In this document: in pieces, positions 2,646 to 8,251 of the stretch
Layout of the letters: the number at the start of each line of letters is the position of its first letter
Numbering within the stretch: position 1 is the first letter of the stretch
Origin: a virus
Length of the DNA: 21,052 nucleotides
Strand: one strand, 5' to 3'
IMG/VR virus record: IMGVR_UViG_3300042695_000792
Location: 1-21,052 of that record
Made by a program: the position numbers and the translations under genes
Notes under the pieces: generated by a model
The model's input: the letters and a program-made list of their open reading frames with translations, nothing else
Told to the model about the DNA's origin: nothing
The model's database searches: none

Positions 2646-3875
2646 TTAGTGGATTAATAACCAAGTACCCACTACATCTGCTCTATTTGCACTATCGTCG
2701 CCGTCACCTGGTTTAACTATAACATTCCACTTTGGTTTATCTCCCACAGGAATTTTCATCATTTCATCGTAGGTAATGACACTGTCTTCAGAAACATTAT
2801 ACTTTAATGCTAACTTTTTCTTTAAAATATCAATAGCGGATGGGGATTTATAAACCAACTTTTTAATTGTTTTATTTGGCTTATCTGGATCTGGTACTTC
2901 TTCTCTATCAACTAAATCAGCAAACATTTGCTTTGGTACTACAGTTGAATGTTTAGTTGTTTTAAAATCGACTTGTTTTTCTTGATCAGGTTTTGCACCC
3001 GCACTAAAATTCATCTTGAAATTGACTGGTTTATCACCTTTAGCCACATCTGCCATTTTAGTATAAGCATAAAAGTCTACGTTGGGAAATGTTTTTGCAA
3101 CACTATATGCTAGGTTTACATAATCAGGACTAAAGAAATCGCCTGAATCATGCCATCTAATCACAGTTTTTACATTTTTCTTTGAATTTTTTTCAACTGC
3201 TGCACGAATTTCGTTTGATAACATATTTTTATAACCATCCGGATCGTTCAACAAAAAGTTAAGTTGTCTTGTTTGCGATGTGTTAACTGGTACATATTGT
3301 ACATAACCGCCTTTTTTAGCATAACAATAAACTTTGCATGCACCTGCGCCTGGACACGTATTTATGATAACAAATTTTTGATTCTTTTCGTCATAACCAA
3401 GTCCTTGTAAAGCTGGCAATCCTATATTATAAAACTGAGTACTTTCACCGCCACTGTGTGAAATTTTTTCATTTTGTTTTAAAATCTTATCAGGACGTGT
3501 GGTGATATGGGTTTTTAGTTTGTTTAAATCAAACCTACGGCCACTTGGATCTACAATTTGTATCTCTCTGGCAAGCTTTGGATGTACATATGGATACTTG
3601 AATTTATCAGTTGGATCTTTTGTAGTAGTATACTTTTGTTTACCTTTTTTATCCAATTTAGGCAATCCAGTTTTCTTATAAACTGCAGGTTGACCGGCCG
3701 ATCTGTCTAAATATCCTTGTAATTCATCGGATGGCAATTCTGTGGTGCCAGCGCCTAACATATCAGCTTCGTCTAATTCTTGTGCAACAAATGAATCTAA
3801 TGACTGTACAGCCGATGCTGGTAATCCTAGACTTTCATACATTTTAACTTCGGTTAGCAAATCGATTAATTTCAT
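2646..3875 (-). CDS. GP88-family protein with Cys cluster, possible packaged cargo
   Basis: This protein resembles the phage 'gene product 88' family known from mycobacteriophages, whose function is unknown. Key signs are the Cys-rich segment NTCPGAGACKVYCYA (about residues 172-186), a conserved TRQLNF, and RWHDSGDFFSPDY (about 240-252) followed by FYAYTK. The three cysteines with spacing C-x5-C-x3-C could bind metal or a cluster; no specific radical-SAM CxxxCxxC motif is present. I chose ATG at 3875 (409 aa). An in-frame TTG at 3902 would add nine residues with no better leader. With the ATG start the protein begins MKLIDLLTEV, resembling T4 capsid-targeting peptides ending in L-x-E. About 110 N-terminal residues precede the family core. 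It is transcribed just ahead of the neck genes, with a 39-base gap. Confidence 0.7.
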   Translation of the reverse strand: MKLIDLLTEVKMYESLGLPASAVQSLDSFVAQELDEADMLGAGTTELPSDELQGYLDRSAGQPAVYKKTGLPKLDKKGKQKYTTTKDPTDKFKYPYVHPKLAREIQIVDPSGRRFDLNKLKTHITTRPDKILKQNEKISHSGGESTQFYNIGLPALQGLGYDEKNQKFVIINTCPGAGACKVYCYAKKGGYVQYVPVNTSQTRQLNFLLNDPDGYKNMLSNEIRAAVEKNSKKNVKTVIRWHDSGDFFSPDYVNLAYSVAKTFPNVDFYAYTKMADVAKGDKPVNFKMNFSAGAKPDQEKQVDFKTTKHSTVVPKQMFADLVDREEVPDPDKPNKTIKKLVYKSPSAIDILKKKLALKYNVSEDSVITYDEMMKIPVGDKPKWNVIVKPGDGDDSANRADVVGTWLLIH

Positions 3876-3943
3876 ATGTGTTTTGTTATTCTTACTTTTC
3901 AACTGCCGTTACCTTTTATTACACGGTTATACTTTTCTTTGAG

Positions 3944-3985: not shown

Positions 3986-4951
3986 ATGAACTTTAAAAAG
4001 CAACTGTTTTATACTATTGTAATTTTGATATTAACTGGATGTATTTCATCAGAGGTTAAATCAGCAAAGCAAGTTAGTGTGGCACAAGATGCCGTTGCAA
4101 AACAAGAAGCCAAAGTAGACAATACAATGGTAGAATTGGAAAAAGTAGAAAAAGGTAAAATAGTACAAACTTCTTCTTTATCAATTGGTATTCAACATTC
4201 GTTAAGTCAAGTAACTAATGCGCCTATACAAGTAGAAACAGCTAAATCTTTGAATGAACGAGTAATTTCTATCGTTGGTTCTCCACACATAGATGAAATT
4301 AAAAGAATTAAAGCTACAGTTGATCTGCTTAATTCTCAAGTAGCTGAAGAACGAAAAAAAGGTGATCAATTATTATCACAACGGGACGAAATCATAAACA
4401 AATTACAAAAAGAAAAGTCTGCTTTAAAAGAAAAGTATGATGATGAACTTTGGCAAATGACTGATAAAGCAAAAGAAATTGCAAAAGAAGCAGATCAAAG
4501 CAAGGCTACACTTGATACAATGAGTGGTATGTTTGGATTAAATGCTGTATTTTGGGGTTTAAAAAAGTTCTTTATTAGTGCTTTAACCGCAATTATCATA
4601 TTTGTTGTAGTATTCGTTATACTTAGAATATTAGCAACAGTACATCCAGCAGCTGGTGCAGTATTTAGTATATTCAATATGATCGGATCCGGACTATTAA
4701 GTTTGGTAAAAGTATTAACTCCACATGCATTTGAAATATCTAACTTTGCTTCAAAAGACAAAGTTGATGAATATAAGTCCCCACTTACTAAGATAGTTGA
4801 TGTAATTCAAGAACTCAAAGAAAAGCAAAAAGAATCTCCTGACAGAGTATATCCATTGACCGAAGTGTTAAAGAGATTTGACAAAGAAATGGACAACTCT
4901 GAAAAAGATTTGATTGATGATATCTTGAAAGAACAAAAGTGGACGAAGTGA
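3986..4951 (+). CDS. Coiled-coil lipoprotein with internal membrane segments
   Basis: This 321 aa protein is not assigned to a known family. It starts with a short basic N-terminus and a hydrophobic stretch ending in the lipobox LTGC (Cys19), predicting signal peptidase II cleavage and lipid attachment. Residues about 27-60 and 100-172 are charged, heptad-like and probably coiled coil. A strong membrane segment covers about 195-218 and a second hydrophobic, Gly/Ala-rich stretch about 221-243. The last 75 residues are charged. A protein lipidated at one end and membrane-inserted in the middle could bridge two membranes, as unimolecular spanins do, although their membrane segment lies at the C-terminus and they lack this tail. 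It is the first gene of the plus-strand island; the MscS-like gene follows after 69 bases. It lacks a Shine-Dalgarno sequence; TATTTATA precedes the start. Confidence 0.75.
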   Translation: MNFKKQLFYTIVILILTGCISSEVKSAKQVSVAQDAVAKQEAKVDNTMVELEKVEKGKIVQTSSLSIGIQHSLSQVTNAPIQVETAKSLNERVISIVGSPHIDEIKRIKATVDLLNSQVAEERKKGDQLLSQRDEIINKLQKEKSALKEKYDDELWQMTDKAKEIAKEADQSKATLDTMSGMFGLNAVFWGLKKFFISALTAIIIFVVVFVILRILATVHPAAGAVFSIFNMIGSGLLSLVKVLTPHAFEISNFASKDKVDEYKSPLTKIVDVIQELKEKQKESPDRVYPLTEVLKRFDKEMDNSEKDLIDDILKEQKWTK

Positions 4952-5020
4952 GATAATTAAATATATTTATTATATAATTGTTTTAGGTGTTAAACTCGTT
5001 TTAAATAACCAAAAACAAAT

Positions 5021-5410
5021 ATGGACACAAATACTGTACAAGTAATTTCAGAAAAAGTATTAGAATCAACAGCGCAAGATATGACAGGCAAATATGTCTG
5101 GATGTTCTTAGCCGGTTTAGTAATTCTAATATTCAAATCAAGCATTGAAAAGTTAGCAGCTGCGCTTTTTATGTTTATTGGATCCGATTATAAAGAAGAT
5201 GACGTTGTATATGTTGATGGTAAACCAGGAAGAATTGTACGTGTAGGTTTAACCAAAACGGTATTCTTTATATATGATGTAGTAGATGGTAAGGTTGTAG
5301 GTGGCAGTAAATTAGTTATTCAAAATGAAAGATTGGCCGGTCTAAATATAGAAAAACCACTACCTCAGTTGGATTTGGCTCGTTTCAAAAAAGAAAACAA
5401 ACAAGACTAA
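5021..5410 (+). CDS. Small membrane protein with MscS-like beta domain
   Basis: This 129 aa protein has one hydrophobic segment at about residues 25-38 and an amphipathic helix at about 41-54 (IEKLAAALFMFIG). A beta-rich stretch at about 57-108 follows, with DDVVYVDGKPGRIVRVGLTKTV and later SKLVIQNERL. This order (last transmembrane/pore-lining helix, then the Sm-like beta domain with a G-x-V-x-x-I/V-G-L strand and an '(I/V)PN'-like end) is that of the MscS mechanosensitive-channel family. Here the outer helices and the C-terminal alpha/beta domain are missing; MscS itself is 286 aa. It could be a minimal channel, a decoy or a membrane scaffold. It lies 7 bases before the ankyrin-cyclase gene, so the two are very likely co-translated. 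MscS-family members that respond to cyclic nucleotides are known, but no nucleotide-binding domain is visible here. Confidence 0.65.
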   Translation: MDTNTVQVISEKVLESTAQDMTGKYVWMFLAGLVILIFKSSIEKLAAALFMFIGSDYKEDDVVYVDGKPGRIVRVGLTKTVFFIYDVVDGKVVGGSKLVIQNERLAGLNIEKPLPQLDLARFKKENKQD

Positions 5411-5417
5411 TTTACTT

Positions 5418-7196
5418 ATGGCAATCAATATTTTTACCCACATTAAACGAGGGTTGTATGATAACGTATACAATTGCATCGAAAAAGAAAAAATAGACGT
5501 TAATCAGAGAGATGACGATACCGGCAATCCACCATTGGTTGTTGCAGTAGAAGAAAATCAAATAGAAATAGTCAAATTGTTATTAAATCGTGGCGCCGAT
5601 GTAAATGTAAAAGATTGGACAAGCAAAAATACTGCATTAGATATATCTGAACAAAAAGGGTTTAAACACATTTCAGAATTATTGCAAGGTCGAGGTGCAA
5701 AATATAGTAGTGGTAGCAGTTTTCATTTGGCTGCTAAGAATGGTGATATTGTTTCTATTGAAGAAATGTTGAGTAAAAAACAAGATATCAATGAAGTTGA
5801 CGCTGGTAAAGGTTGGACAGCACTACACTATGCGGTTAATTATGGACAAAAACATTTGGTTGAATATTTAATTGTTAAAGGTGCTGATGTCAACAAGAAA
5901 GATTTCTTAGGTAAAAACAATCCAATAGATGTGTTATCCAATGTTAATAGAGGTGAAATTGTTAAGTTGTTAAATAAAAATGGCGCTAAATCTGCTGGTG
6001 GTGTTAATATTCATTTTTGTGCTGAAACCGGTGATTTTGAAGGTGTACAGTCATTTTTTGATAAAGACGGTAAAATTAATGGTAGAGATGAAAAGAATGG
6101 ATGGATGCCATTACATTACGCCGTTAATGCTAACGATGTTGATATGACGGAGTTTTTGGTACATTTGGGTGCAAATGTTAATGGTGCAGATTTTAAGGGA
6201 GAAATTGCTCCGTTAGACATTGCATTCAAGACAGGCAATGTAGAAATGCAAAGTTATTTACAAGCCAAAGGTGCTTTAAGAAAGAAGAAACACGATACGG
6301 GTGGTAATGGTAAAGATGTAAACATTTATATTACAGATGAAGTTAAGAAACAAATTGCGTTATTCATTGAAAAACGCAATCGTGAAGAAGAAGCAATAAA
6401 GAAACTAGAAGCAGAACAGACTGCAAAAGAACCAAAAAAGAAAGATGCACCAACAAAAAAGATTAACTGGAAAGACTTTTTAAAATTAAAGAATATGCCG
6501 GTTGTAGAAAAGAAAGAAGAACAACCAAAGGTTGAAGTACCAAAACCAGTTAAACAAATAGTTCGTAAAGTTGACAAGATCGACGTGGAAGTCAAATCAG
6601 GACGATTACAATTAGATACTGAACAAGAAGGTTTCATATTCTTTATGGATATTGTGGCTTACAGTAAAAAAACCACAGATGAACAAAAGAAGGCTTGTAA
6701 AGACTTGGGTACACTAGTTAAATCTACAATGCAATATAAAACAGCTAATGCTCTTGAAAAGTTGATTATATTACCCACCGGAGATGGTATGGTAATGGGA
6801 TTTTTCACGTATCTAGAAGATGCAATGAATTGTGCCGTTGCTATAGCTAAAGCAGTAAAAGATAGACCCGACTTACAAATGAGAATGGGTGTACACTGTG
6901 GACCTGTAATTCCAATGGAAGATATCAATGGAAATCTTAATATAAGCGGTGATGGAATCAATTATGCTCAAAGAGTAATGGATGCGGGTGAAACAAATCA
7001 TTTATTAGTTAGTTCAGCTGTAATGTTGAAATATGATAGACCAGCATACGTTTTGGTAAATGATTTGGGGGATGTAATTGTAAAACACGGTGTAATAATG
7101 CATTTGTACAGTTTACACGGTACCGAGTTTGGTAACAAAGAATTTCCATCAAGTAGAGTAAAAAAAGCAGAACCAACAACAAATAAACCATTATGA
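5418..7196 (+). CDS. Ankyrin-repeat / class III nucleotidyl cyclase fusion protein
   Basis: This 592 aa protein has three parts. Residues about 1-288 hold roughly six ankyrin repeats in three paired units (GWTALHYAV near 132-140, GWMPLHYAV near 228-236, repeated GADVN). Residues about 300-400 are a charged Lys/Glu/Pro-rich linker. Residues about 405-570 form a class III cyclase catalytic domain: FFMDIVAYS supplies the first metal Asp (D411), LPTGDGMVMGF the second (D456), then RMGVHCGP, and GINYAQRVM supplies the catalytic Asn and Arg (N515, R519), followed by DLGDVIVKHG. All metal and transition-state residues are present, so it should be active. The two purine-selecting positions of mammalian-type adenylyl cyclases (Lys 4 before the second Asp, Asp 7 before the Asn) are L452 and N508, so the substrate (ATP, GTP, CTP or UTP) cannot be assigned. 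No transmembrane segment is seen. It overlaps the next gene by 4 bases. Confidence 0.9.
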   Translation: MAINIFTHIKRGLYDNVYNCIEKEKIDVNQRDDDTGNPPLVVAVEENQIEIVKLLLNRGADVNVKDWTSKNTALDISEQKGFKHISELLQGRGAKYSSGSSFHLAAKNGDIVSIEEMLSKKQDINEVDAGKGWTALHYAVNYGQKHLVEYLIVKGADVNKKDFLGKNNPIDVLSNVNRGEIVKLLNKNGAKSAGGVNIHFCAETGDFEGVQSFFDKDGKINGRDEKNGWMPLHYAVNANDVDMTEFLVHLGANVNGADFKGEIAPLDIAFKTGNVEMQSYLQAKGALRKKKHDTGGNGKDVNIYITDEVKKQIALFIEKRNREEEAIKKLEAEQTAKEPKKKDAPTKKINWKDFLKLKNMPVVEKKEEQPKVEVPKPVKQIVRKVDKIDVEVKSGRLQLDTEQEGFIFFMDIVAYSKKTTDEQKKACKDLGTLVKSTMQYKTANALEKLIILPTGDGMVMGFFTYLEDAMNCAVAIAKAVKDRPDLQMRMGVHCGPVIPMEDINGNLNISGDGINYAQRVMDAGETNHLLVSSAVMLKYDRPAYVLVNDLGDVIVKHGVIMHLYSLHGTEFGNKEFPSSRVKKAEPTTNKPL

Positions 7197-7405
7197 AAAT
7201 GATACCTTTGGGAAGACAATATCACGCAAGTGTTGTTAATACAGATTTGGATGTATATAAAATAAAAGATAAAGTAATGGGTGTACGTACAAGTAATCAT
7301 CCAGGTCCATTTCAAATTTCAGATAAACTCGGTATCATTAAAGATAACGATACCAAGATCAGAATTGTAGTTTATAATTCAAAAGGCTTGTTTTATTTAA
7401 TATAA
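7193..7405 (+). CDS. Small protein of unknown function (70 aa)
   Basis: The ATG overlaps the stop of the ankyrin-cyclase gene in an ATGA junction, the usual sign of translational coupling, which is the main reason to accept this short frame. The product is basic, with no membrane segment and no recognised domain. The second half (KIRIVVYNSKGLFYLI) looks like beta strands. Its stop is immediately followed by the promoter of the Mom-like gene, so it ends the island's first operon. It could be a small partner or regulator of the cyclase; there is no direct evidence. Confidence 0.55.
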   Translation: MKMIPLGRQYHASVVNTDLDVYKIKDKVMGVRTSNHPGPFQISDKLGIIKDNDTKIRIVVYNSKGLFYLI

Positions 7406-7408
7406 ATG

Positions 7409-7436
7409 TTGACATTCTTTATTATAGGTTTATAAT
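7409..7436 (+). promoter_or_regulatory. Near-consensus sigma70 promoter for the Mom-like gene
   Basis: TTGACA (7409-7414), a 16-base spacer and TATAAT (7431-7436) match both bacterial sigma70 hexamers exactly. Initiation about 7 bases after the -10 box falls on or next to the A of the ATG at 7443, implying a leaderless or nearly leaderless mRNA. A late-like TATAAATG (one mismatch to TATAAATA) lies at 7401-7408. This suggests early expression of the modification gene by host polymerase, plus possible late expression. Confidence 0.65.
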
Positions 7437-7442
7437 GGGGGA

Positions 7443-8216
7443 ATGTCCGAATATTGTGATACCTCATTGCTTTATCTCAAAAGTATCAATAAGAATGTTG
7501 CAAAAACTCTTATTGAAAAAAACCATTATACACACAAATGGTCTCTTTGTACTGTAGCTTATGGAGTTTATTATAAAGAGTATATTGAAAGCACATTCTT
7601 TGGTGGTTTTAACGAACGCCTAATAGGTGTATTAGTATATGGAAATGCCGTGGGTAGAAATGCAAGTACCAGCATATGTCCTCTACTTACTAATAACAAT
7701 GTGTTGGAATTAACACGACTGTGGATTGCAGATGGTTATGGTAAAAATATAGAAAGCTATTGTATAGCTGAAAGTTTTAGATTATTAAACACAGATTATC
7801 CACAAATAAAATGTATTCTTAGTTACGCGGATAGTGAAGCTGGTCACGTTGGAACAATATATCAAGCAACTGGATTTGTATATCAAGGTGATAACTATGT
7901 GGATATTGCACTGATGCCTAACTATAGTGTTAGTTTAATTGGCCCCACTGAATATGATTGGATACATAGTAGAAGTGTATATGCACGTTGGAAAACACAC
8001 AGTGTAGATAAACTAAAAGAACGTATTGGTAGAACATTTTGGCGCAAACGTGAAAGCGGTAAACATCGTTATATCAAGTTTATAAGCAACAAGATAGAAA
8101 ATAAGAAACTGGTTAAATCTCTTAAACATAAAGTTCTACCTTATCCCAAAGATACTTCGTTCAAAGAAGAAGTGCAAGAAATCGTTGTAGAAAATACCAA
8201 CGAATTTTTCGATTAG
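7443..8216 (+). CDS. Mom-like GNAT protein, predicted DNA adenine modification
   Basis: This 257 aa protein matches the Mom family (phage Mu Mom, which adds a methylcarbamoyl group to the N6 position of adenine in DNA and blocks many restriction enzymes). Matching signs are an N-terminal KNHYTHKW segment (residues 26-33), LIGVLVYGNAVGR (60-72), the central LELTRLWIADGYGKN (88-102), and SYADSEAGHVGTIYQATGF (127-145), the GNAT-fold core of the family. A C-terminal KHRYIKFI and LPYPK (232-236) are typical of this group. Mu Mom is 241 aa, so length fits. It is the last gene of the plus-strand island, has its own sigma70-like promoter, and ends 8 bases before a strong terminator. The start at 7443 is the only usable ATG before the conserved N-terminal segment. 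Target sequence and exact modification are unknown. Confidence 0.82.
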   Translation: MSEYCDTSLLYLKSINKNVAKTLIEKNHYTHKWSLCTVAYGVYYKEYIESTFFGGFNERLIGVLVYGNAVGRNASTSICPLLTNNNVLELTRLWIADGYGKNIESYCIAESFRLLNTDYPQIKCILSYADSEAGHVGTIYQATGFVYQGDNYVDIALMPNYSVSLIGPTEYDWIHSRSVYARWKTHSVDKLKERIGRTFWRKRESGKHRYIKFISNKIENKKLVKSLKHKVLPYPKDTSFKEEVQEIVVENTNEFFD

Positions 8217-8223
8217 TGCAAGA

Positions 8224-8251
8224 AAAAACCCCAACTTTCGTTGGGGTTTTT
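8224..8251. terminator. Bidirectional intrinsic terminator
   Basis: A 7-bp GC-containing stem (CCCCAAC / GTTGGGG) with a TTTC loop is flanked by five A's on the left and five T's on the right. It therefore gives a stem plus U-tract on both strands. It lies between the stop of the plus-strand Mom-like gene (8216) and the stop of the minus-strand capsid gene (8276) and should end both transcripts. Confidence 0.93.

Follow-up and report, generated by a model that had tools for sequence, protein, structure and literature searches.

A candidate cyclic-nucleotide module pairing an ankyrin-cyclase with a minimal MscS-family protein at the head-gene locus of a T4-like phage

Class III nucleotidyl cyclases specify their substrate through a lysine with an aspartate or threonine (adenylyl cyclases) or a glutamate with a cysteine (guanylyl cyclases). 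The MscS superfamily includes the bacterial cyclic-nucleotide-gated channels (bCNG). Phages control lysis with holins, antiholins and spanins, and T4 shows lysis inhibition; no lysis system is known to us in which a cyclic nucleotide made by the phage takes part. Here we analyse a cassette in a 21,052-nucleotide (21 kb) virus record, IMGVR_UViG_3300042695_000792 (the window is this whole stretch), with consecutive genes for a lipoprotein, an MscS-like mini protein, a fusion of ankyrin repeats to a class III-type cyclase (the ankyrin-cyclase) and a 70-residue protein (ORF70). We read it tentatively, with a little less than even confidence, as a phage-encoded cyclic-nucleotide switch that would act at the envelope, most likely on lysis.

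An earlier note on this DNA, made from its letters alone, was reminded of Pycsar defence. The resemblance holds for architecture: a class III-type cyclase is encoded beside a membrane protein, with a possible membrane output. It does not extend to a receptor. No protein with a cyclic-nucleotide-binding domain (CNBD; PF00027) scored above cut-off in any of 14 records, which may be fragments; one weak cNMP_binding match (18.2 bits) lies in a small cupin-like gene (G012:C1:122486-122671) of a record without such a cyclase. The module further differs in being phage-borne, in its ankyrin repeats and in its MscS-like partner. Base-recognition residues of PycC enzymes, as given in excerpts of PMC11224242, are Y50/D94/R97 in BcPycC, F100/R142/Q144 in EaPycC and F60/K104/F109 in AnPycC. 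Compared by spacing only, from the second metal aspartate, the window residues are L452, T454 and G457, and L452 and N508 stand in place of the PycC residues (metal residue numbers come from the same excerpts, for EaPycC only). We dropped Pycsar as a label for the module, given the lack of a CNBD receptor in the 14 records and the non-canonical base-choosing residues.

Cyclase domains occur in other viruses. A search of viral cyclase-domain proteins gave six matches at E ≤0.001, and the four named ones are all from giant viruses. These guanylate cyclase-domain proteins (Harvfovirus, Faunusvirus, Pandoravirus) likewise place a class III fold in a virus, but they have other architectures than the ankyrin-cyclase and belong to viruses of eukaryotes. 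According to excerpts of PMC9117128 and PMC12043709, phages cut the signal nucleotides on which bacterial defence depends, or sponge them up; an excerpt of PMC6737242, whose subject is the lysis-lysogeny switch of phage T1 and the metabolic state of its host, also names cAMP. A phage that makes a signal nucleotide with its own cyclase, with a sensor kinase and a putative phosphodiesterase in relatives, would, if real, do the reverse of cutting or sponging. No description of such a module was found in the open-access literature, as far as its available text goes (subscription papers and bioRxiv lay outside the search), and term searches within PMC7674155 and PMC12619734 turned up no cyclase. 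We call the module new because no described family fits the whole set and the open-access search found no account of it.

The ankyrin-cyclase and its putative membrane partners

The window carries T4-type head genes (terminase, portal, protease, major head protein and adaptor) on the - strand. The cassette lies on the + strand between a gp88-type gene and the major head gene, flanked on the opposite strand by the head genes. Its order is lipoprotein, MscS-like protein, ankyrin-cyclase and ORF70, then a Mom-like DNA modification gene, at successive spacings of 69 nt, 7 nt, a 4-nt overlap (ATGA) and 37 nt. The four genes that the earlier note proposed are real, co-oriented and tightly packed (Table 1). 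Lipoprotein, MscS and cyclase genes are under strong purifying selection, with median dN/dS of 0.06–0.07: 0.068 for the lipoprotein (39 of 66 pairs usable), 0.066 for MscS (26 of 91) and 0.059 for the cyclase (69 of 105). The median for ORF70 is 0.175 (31 of 45 pairs usable).

The ankyrin repeats match at E 5.7e-34. The cyclase domain exceeds the cut-off of Guanylate_cyc (PF00211; E 5.2e-5, 23.4 bits against 21.9), and diverged relatives in L226, L223 and L346 fall under it (L numbers denote loci, G numbers records). Its structural model is poor (pLDDT 53), yet Foldseek matches it to the class III cyclases Ma1120, Rv1900c and CyaC at E 6.3e-8. Across 94 non-redundant cyclase relatives, D411 and D456, which had been picked out from the letters alone, are the metal aspartates, and every departure from aspartate is a gap. 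The transition-state asparagine is present in 20/20 viral and 20/20 bacterial rows and is I, V or L in the 54 archaeal-group rows (L246-L304, including one locus from a TM6 bacterium); counts by group rest on a separate 143-cluster grouping in which some near-identical loci, such as L451 and L452, stand apart. By family score, fold, and metal and transition-state residues, then, the protein is predicted to be a class III nucleotidyl cyclase.

Fold, both metal aspartates and the transition-state asparagine and arginine are shared with Ma1120, Rv1900c and CyaC. The base-choosing residues are not. We take L452 to occupy the place of the canonical substrate-specifying lysine and N508 that of the aspartate or threonine, and the same replacement by leucine and asparagine is seen in the Verrucomicrobia relatives. 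The ankyrin-cyclase has neither Lys with Asp/Thr nor Glu with Cys, and cAMP was dropped as its named product on account of these non-canonical residues. As a separate observation, the matched cyclase frames of G356 and G365 each hold one internal stop (TAA and TGA).

The mini protein belongs, on present models and profiles, to the MscS superfamily through its predicted beta-domain. The window protein itself scores below the cut-off of PF00924 (14.3 against 20.2 bits), as does the L071 relative (19.2). Relatives above the cut-off are those of L226 (29.3 bits), L421 (28.5) and L451 (31), which are 32%, 32% and 39% identical to it. The AlphaFold model has low confidence (pLDDT 59). Foldseek ranks E. 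coli MscS first (E 0.011), with no match reaching E 0.001; among the 50 matches listed, 35 are titled MscS-family channels, three are untitled membrane proteins and 12 are unrelated, 11 of these being pre-60S ribosome chains. We do not take the MscS or the cyclase AlphaFold model at face value. The MscS profile gave one match, unrelated, among PDB sequences. A scan of 84,980 species genomes with MscS alignment A1 was empty; it was pattern-limited and missed L226, found later via the cyclase. As in other MscS-superfamily proteins, the beta-domain (PF00924) follows a hydrophobic helix. Unlike them, bCNG channels included, the protein is only 129 residues long with one hydrophobic segment, and it lacks TM1-TM2 paddles and an alpha-beta vestibule domain. 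Such a family would offer a minimal pore for channel work. A different MscS-lipoprotein pairing is seen in L421:10004-10722 and L395:8912-9759, where the MscS gene overlaps a small lipoprotein-like gene.

The lipoprotein carries a lipobox, LTGC, and its Cys19 is invariant in 18/18 aligned rows. It has a long charged region, coiled-coil-like as judged by eye, and a hydrophobic stretch (about residues 187-245 by hydropathy) that is internal, with some 75 residues behind it. A unimolecular spanin combines an N-terminal lipobox with a C-terminal membrane segment. The L213 relative matches spanin family phrog_812 over residues 1-27 only, and weakly (E 0.042). We dropped the name spanin for it.

Table 1. 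Positions of the cassette, its key codons and adjoining features in the window
Feature	Position	Strand	Remarks
gp88-type gene	2646-3902		PF17338; adjoins cassette
Lipoprotein gene, 321 aa	3986-4951	+	lipobox, hydrophobic stretch, conserved C-terminal tail
Segment with MscS, cyclase and ORF70, missing from L158	4979-7390		blastn
MscS-family mini protein (predicted), 129 aa	5021-5410	+	one long hydrophobic helix, MscS beta-domain
Ankyrin-class III nucleotidyl cyclase fusion (predicted), 592 aa	5418-7196	+	ankyrins residues ~15-290, cyclase ~395-570
Codon of D411, first metal aspartate	6648-6650	+	D in 92/94 rows, 2 gaps
Codon of L452	6771-6773	+	L in 91/94 rows, 2 I, 1 gap
Codon of D456, second metal aspartate	6783-6785	+	D in 93/94 rows, 1 gap
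Codon of N508	6939-6941	+	N in 90/94 rows, 2 I, 1 T, 1 S
Codons N515 to R519, transition-state Asn and Arg	6960-6974	+	R in 93/94 rows, 1 Q
ORF70, 70 aa	7193-7405	+	start overlaps cyclase stop (ATGA)
Promoter match	7409-7436		TTGACA-16-TATAAT
Mom-like gene	7443-8216	+	PF25680, E 1.8e-44
Terminator-like hairpin	8224-8251	+	after Mom gene, where + strand genes end

Conservation and gene swapping among relatives

Seven scans of viral contigs used MscS, cyclase, receptor-cyclase, HD and lipoprotein queries and, later, more diverse cyclase and MscS queries. The first scans together with L001 gave 213 loci (46 clusters, used for architectures only). Four scans contributed the best 80 of 96, 93, 111 and 287 relatives, 111 belonging to the diverse cyclase scan (79 loci) and 287 to the MscS scan. 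Removing 79 cellular loci (L225-L304 without L226) and 19 re-cut or family-search loci from 463 left 365, which blastn grouped into 115 clusters, the basis of every cluster count. With single linkage at 96% identity, 112 loci from the wider clade of the window fall into one cluster, L158-type and receptor-cyclase variants included.

The earlier note had tied its proposal to conservation of the neighbourhood in related phages, and there the genes do occur together. The cyclase is present in 51/115 clusters. MscS lies no more than 9.1 kb away in 34 of these 51 (46/66 in the 143-cluster grouping), and in 23 of the 33 clusters where the cyclase has 4 kb or more of sequence on each side. Cyclase and lipoprotein co-occur in 11 clusters; MscS is there in 11/11, in the order lipoprotein-MscS-cyclase where seen. 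This trio is a regular operon in the window's clade. ORF70 was seen only directly after the ankyrin-cyclase (first 213 loci), and family searches with it gave no match at a convincing E-value. The module is also found away from head genes (L060, L061, L063, L065, L066, L069, L074).

Whole records give a more qualified picture. In a first set of 19, ten records have MscS together with the cyclase and nine have neither; a twentieth record, the 26-kb fragment G020, contains MscS (L072) without a cyclase. Of the 20, 17 have the lipoprotein, nine of them without the MscS-cyclase pair, and a PF00211 search of four of these nine gave no match. These 20 are not a fair sample because the loci that led to them came from the same queries. 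The rule that MscS and cyclase always occur together, which held in the first 19 records, broke as more phages were scanned. The pair is thus a strong tendency and not a law. Searching 50,697 annotated phage records by tblastn with the cyclase domain, MscS and lipoprotein returned nothing.

The head-gene locus varies in its cargo. Its commonest architecture between the gp88 and Mom/major head genes is lipoprotein-MscS-ankyrin-cyclase-ORF70. In L158 and L210, Mom directly follows the lipoprotein. Blastn pieces shared with L158 end at window position 4978 and restart at 7391, with an 11 bp overlap in L158, and both flanks are retained (lipoprotein 88%, Mom 95% identical). MscS-cyclase-ORF70 is a presence/absence segment. 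Elsewhere the ankyrin-cyclase and ORF70 are replaced, giving lipoprotein-MscS-barrel-receptor cyclase-HD (L212/L142), or both cyclases are present, ORF70 giving way to the barrel, receptor cyclase and HD genes (L168, L132).

The receptor-like cyclase matches PF00211 at E 5.8e-26 and keeps canonical residues Lys341 and Thr416, which we take to be the CyaC-type pair; their retention suggests cAMP. Its catalytic part is matched by phrog_35576 (function not annotated) at E 1.5e-50, and from such PHROG matches it follows that unannotated cyclases exist in other phage data. The HD protein is of Npun_R2479 type (E 1.3e-14, 54 bits, far under the equivalog cut-off of 400). Nothing meaningful came from comparing it with PDB sequences; its YHNxxH and HD pattern presumably reflects a likeness to cyclic-nucleotide phosphodiesterases. 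A PAS protein is present among the relatives' added genes. In L346:6739-10597, a PAS-histidine kinase, a receiver and an unclassified gene lie directly upstream of the ankyrin-cyclase, possibly forming a phage phosphorelay.

Among cellular relatives, the nearest is a full-length ankyrin-cyclase in a Verrucomicrobiales metagenome-assembled genome (MAG), on a contig of 65% GC, with a cyclase domain 81% identical; its neighbours read to us like kdsB and ligA. The next relatives (42-45%) come mostly from Verrucomicrobia MAGs and in one case from an Acidobacteria MAG, followed by ammonia-oxidising archaea (29-37%). L226 (cyclase 47%), from a Flavobacteriales MAG, resembles a phage contig (PhoH). 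The window's major head protein is 50% identical to its counterparts in Microcystis phage Mel-JY01 and Flavobacterium phage immuto. The host of the phage is likely a member of Verrucomicrobiota.

Lysis-gene linkage and the competing readings

The proposal of a membrane-associated cyclic-nucleotide module in T4-like phages draws support from the conserved neighbourhood, the metal and transition-state residues and purifying selection; the second cyclase and HD gene of relatives also count in its favour. Three functions had been put forward: superinfection exclusion, membrane permeability at lysis, and rewiring of host signalling. We favour lysis/envelope control because the MscS and lipoprotein genes of relatives adjoin holin/endolysin genes, and keep the other two as rivals. 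In this the relatives resemble known phage lysis control, and the lipoprotein recalls a spanin. In L071 the matched parts of MscS and a holin (PF23987, Pam3 gp28 family, E 9.8e-15) are 41 nt apart, with a lysozyme-LysM gene 0.8 kb away, and G359, a near relative of that phage (MscS 95% identical), repeats holin and lysozyme. In L072 a protein 70% identical to the L071 holin lies 64 nt from MscS. In L065 and L066 a phrog_2359 holin sits between MscS and ankyrin-cyclase, after a family-less protein that is hydrophobic at both ends. In 8/24 lipoprotein clusters (L190, L191, L199, L204, L206, L213, L065, L066) the lipoprotein gene has a holin or endolysin gene no farther than 1.7 kb away. Moreover, in G013 and G359 MscS stands beside lysis genes with an ankyrin-cyclase some 30 kb off in the same record.

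The gene anatomy, conservation, swapping and lysis-gene linkage described above are observed; catalytic activity, a messenger, gating and a role in lysis are what we infer. The ankyrin-cyclase would sense a cue through its repeats and make a cyclic nucleotide, which, directly or through another factor, would move a minimal inner-membrane pore of the MscS family from one state to another. In concert with the lipoprotein and, in relatives, the holin, the pore would let the infection state set the timing of permeability and lysis or delay them. The receptor cyclase, PAS, histidine-kinase and receiver proteins of relatives would feed in other cues, and the HD hydrolase would switch the signal off. 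If the product gates the mini-channel or sets lysis time, second-messenger signalling would be tied to the phage's lysis-timing decision. In a bolder version, swappable sensor cyclases (ankyrin, receptor, kinase-fed) and the HD off-switch would set the level of a cyclic nucleotide, and this would open a minimal MscS pore associated with the holin, the phage choosing when to breach or hold the envelope; this full second-messenger lysis signalling we consider doubtful. In general terms, the proximity to lysis genes in several relatives suggests that phages of this kind, some aquatic viruses of bacteria among them, may govern the envelope of the bacterium through a small signal molecule.

Several findings weigh against a cyclic-nucleotide switch on lysis. 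MscS occurs without this cyclase in 49 clusters (many short, 20 with 4 kb on both sides), and 12/12 MscS-only records (29-144 kb, 10 clusters) hold no cyclase of this family anywhere. Conversely, 17 cyclase clusters, many of short loci, have no MscS nearby. Across eight cyclase records without local MscS (seven clusters), MscS lies elsewhere only in G359; the others are G356, G358, G360 and G361 (one cluster), G362 and the shorter G363 and G364. The Verrucomicrobiales genome with the cyclase has no match to the MscS profile. The mini protein lacks a CNBD or other nucleotide-binding domain, and the non-canonical substrate residues lower confidence in any named cyclase product. Lysis linkage has its own gaps: the only match of the holin-like protein in L072 is to a PHROG without a known function; the lipoprotein clusters linked to lysis genes all lie away from the window's head-gene locus; the 22 window proteins scanned gave no lysis-family match at a meaningful level; window-type records G001-G007 gave none to phrog_2359, PF00959 or PF07486; and neither visual inspection nor five lysis queries revealed a neighbouring lysis gene in the marine-type MscS loci L421, L451, L453 and L462, where the genes beside MscS, judged by eye, are PhoH, structural or others.

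The main rival, which we rate unlikely, is superinfection exclusion or abortive defence: a competing phage would trigger the cyclase and the MscS pore would stop the cell. If right, it would make the module a phage-borne variant of the Pycsar-like kind, which a cyclase with a membrane protein recalls (PMC11224242, in excerpts). The segment does behave like cargo, being missing in L158, with cyclase type swapped at one place and on several phage backbones, and it adjoins a Mom-like DNA-modification gene. Against this stand the CNBD count of zero in 14 records and the linkage of relatives to the phage's own holin and endolysin genes; PADLOC models match only the ankyrin part of the cyclase protein, the presence of a PycC model in that library being unchecked. 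Alternatively, a host-type regulatory cyclase could shift host cyclic-nucleotide levels, with MscS an independent osmotic safety valve. The full-length Verrucomicrobiales relative and its Verrucomicrobia kin fit such rewiring, as does the Lys341/Thr416 pair of the receptor cyclase, but the full-length gene is found at E ≤1e-40 in only 1/320 genomes searched in that order, the ankyrin-cyclase residues are non-canonical and the cyclase sits in a tight operon with lipoprotein and MscS genes. We rate host rewiring slightly less likely still.

It is improbable that the genes have no functional link and are separate cargo sharing permissive sites. Each does occur alone, the lipoprotein in 10 clusters, and many loci are cut short. 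However, MscS accompanies cyclase and lipoprotein without exception where these two co-occur, the first cyclase is swapped for another type next to the same MscS gene, and in L226 ankyrin-cyclase and MscS remain 1.8 kb apart although this MscS is only 32% identical to that of the window.

Flanking genes and other observations

A perfect sigma-70 promoter match (12/12) lies ahead of the Mom-like gene; weaker promoter-like sites in the region are not above chance in number. Terminator-like hairpins were found at 4 sites, against 1.8 expected by chance. The gp88-type gene is highly variable among relatives, many matching over the first 41 residues only. Two kinds of gene, one small and lipoprotein-like and the other HTH-like, turn up repeatedly near the diverged ankyrin-cyclase (L223:2610-2873, L226:6082-7055; by eye). 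Outer-membrane barrel-like genes lie near the module in L074:10810-11514 (PF13505, E 4e-4, below cut-off) and L346:11556-12263 (by eye).

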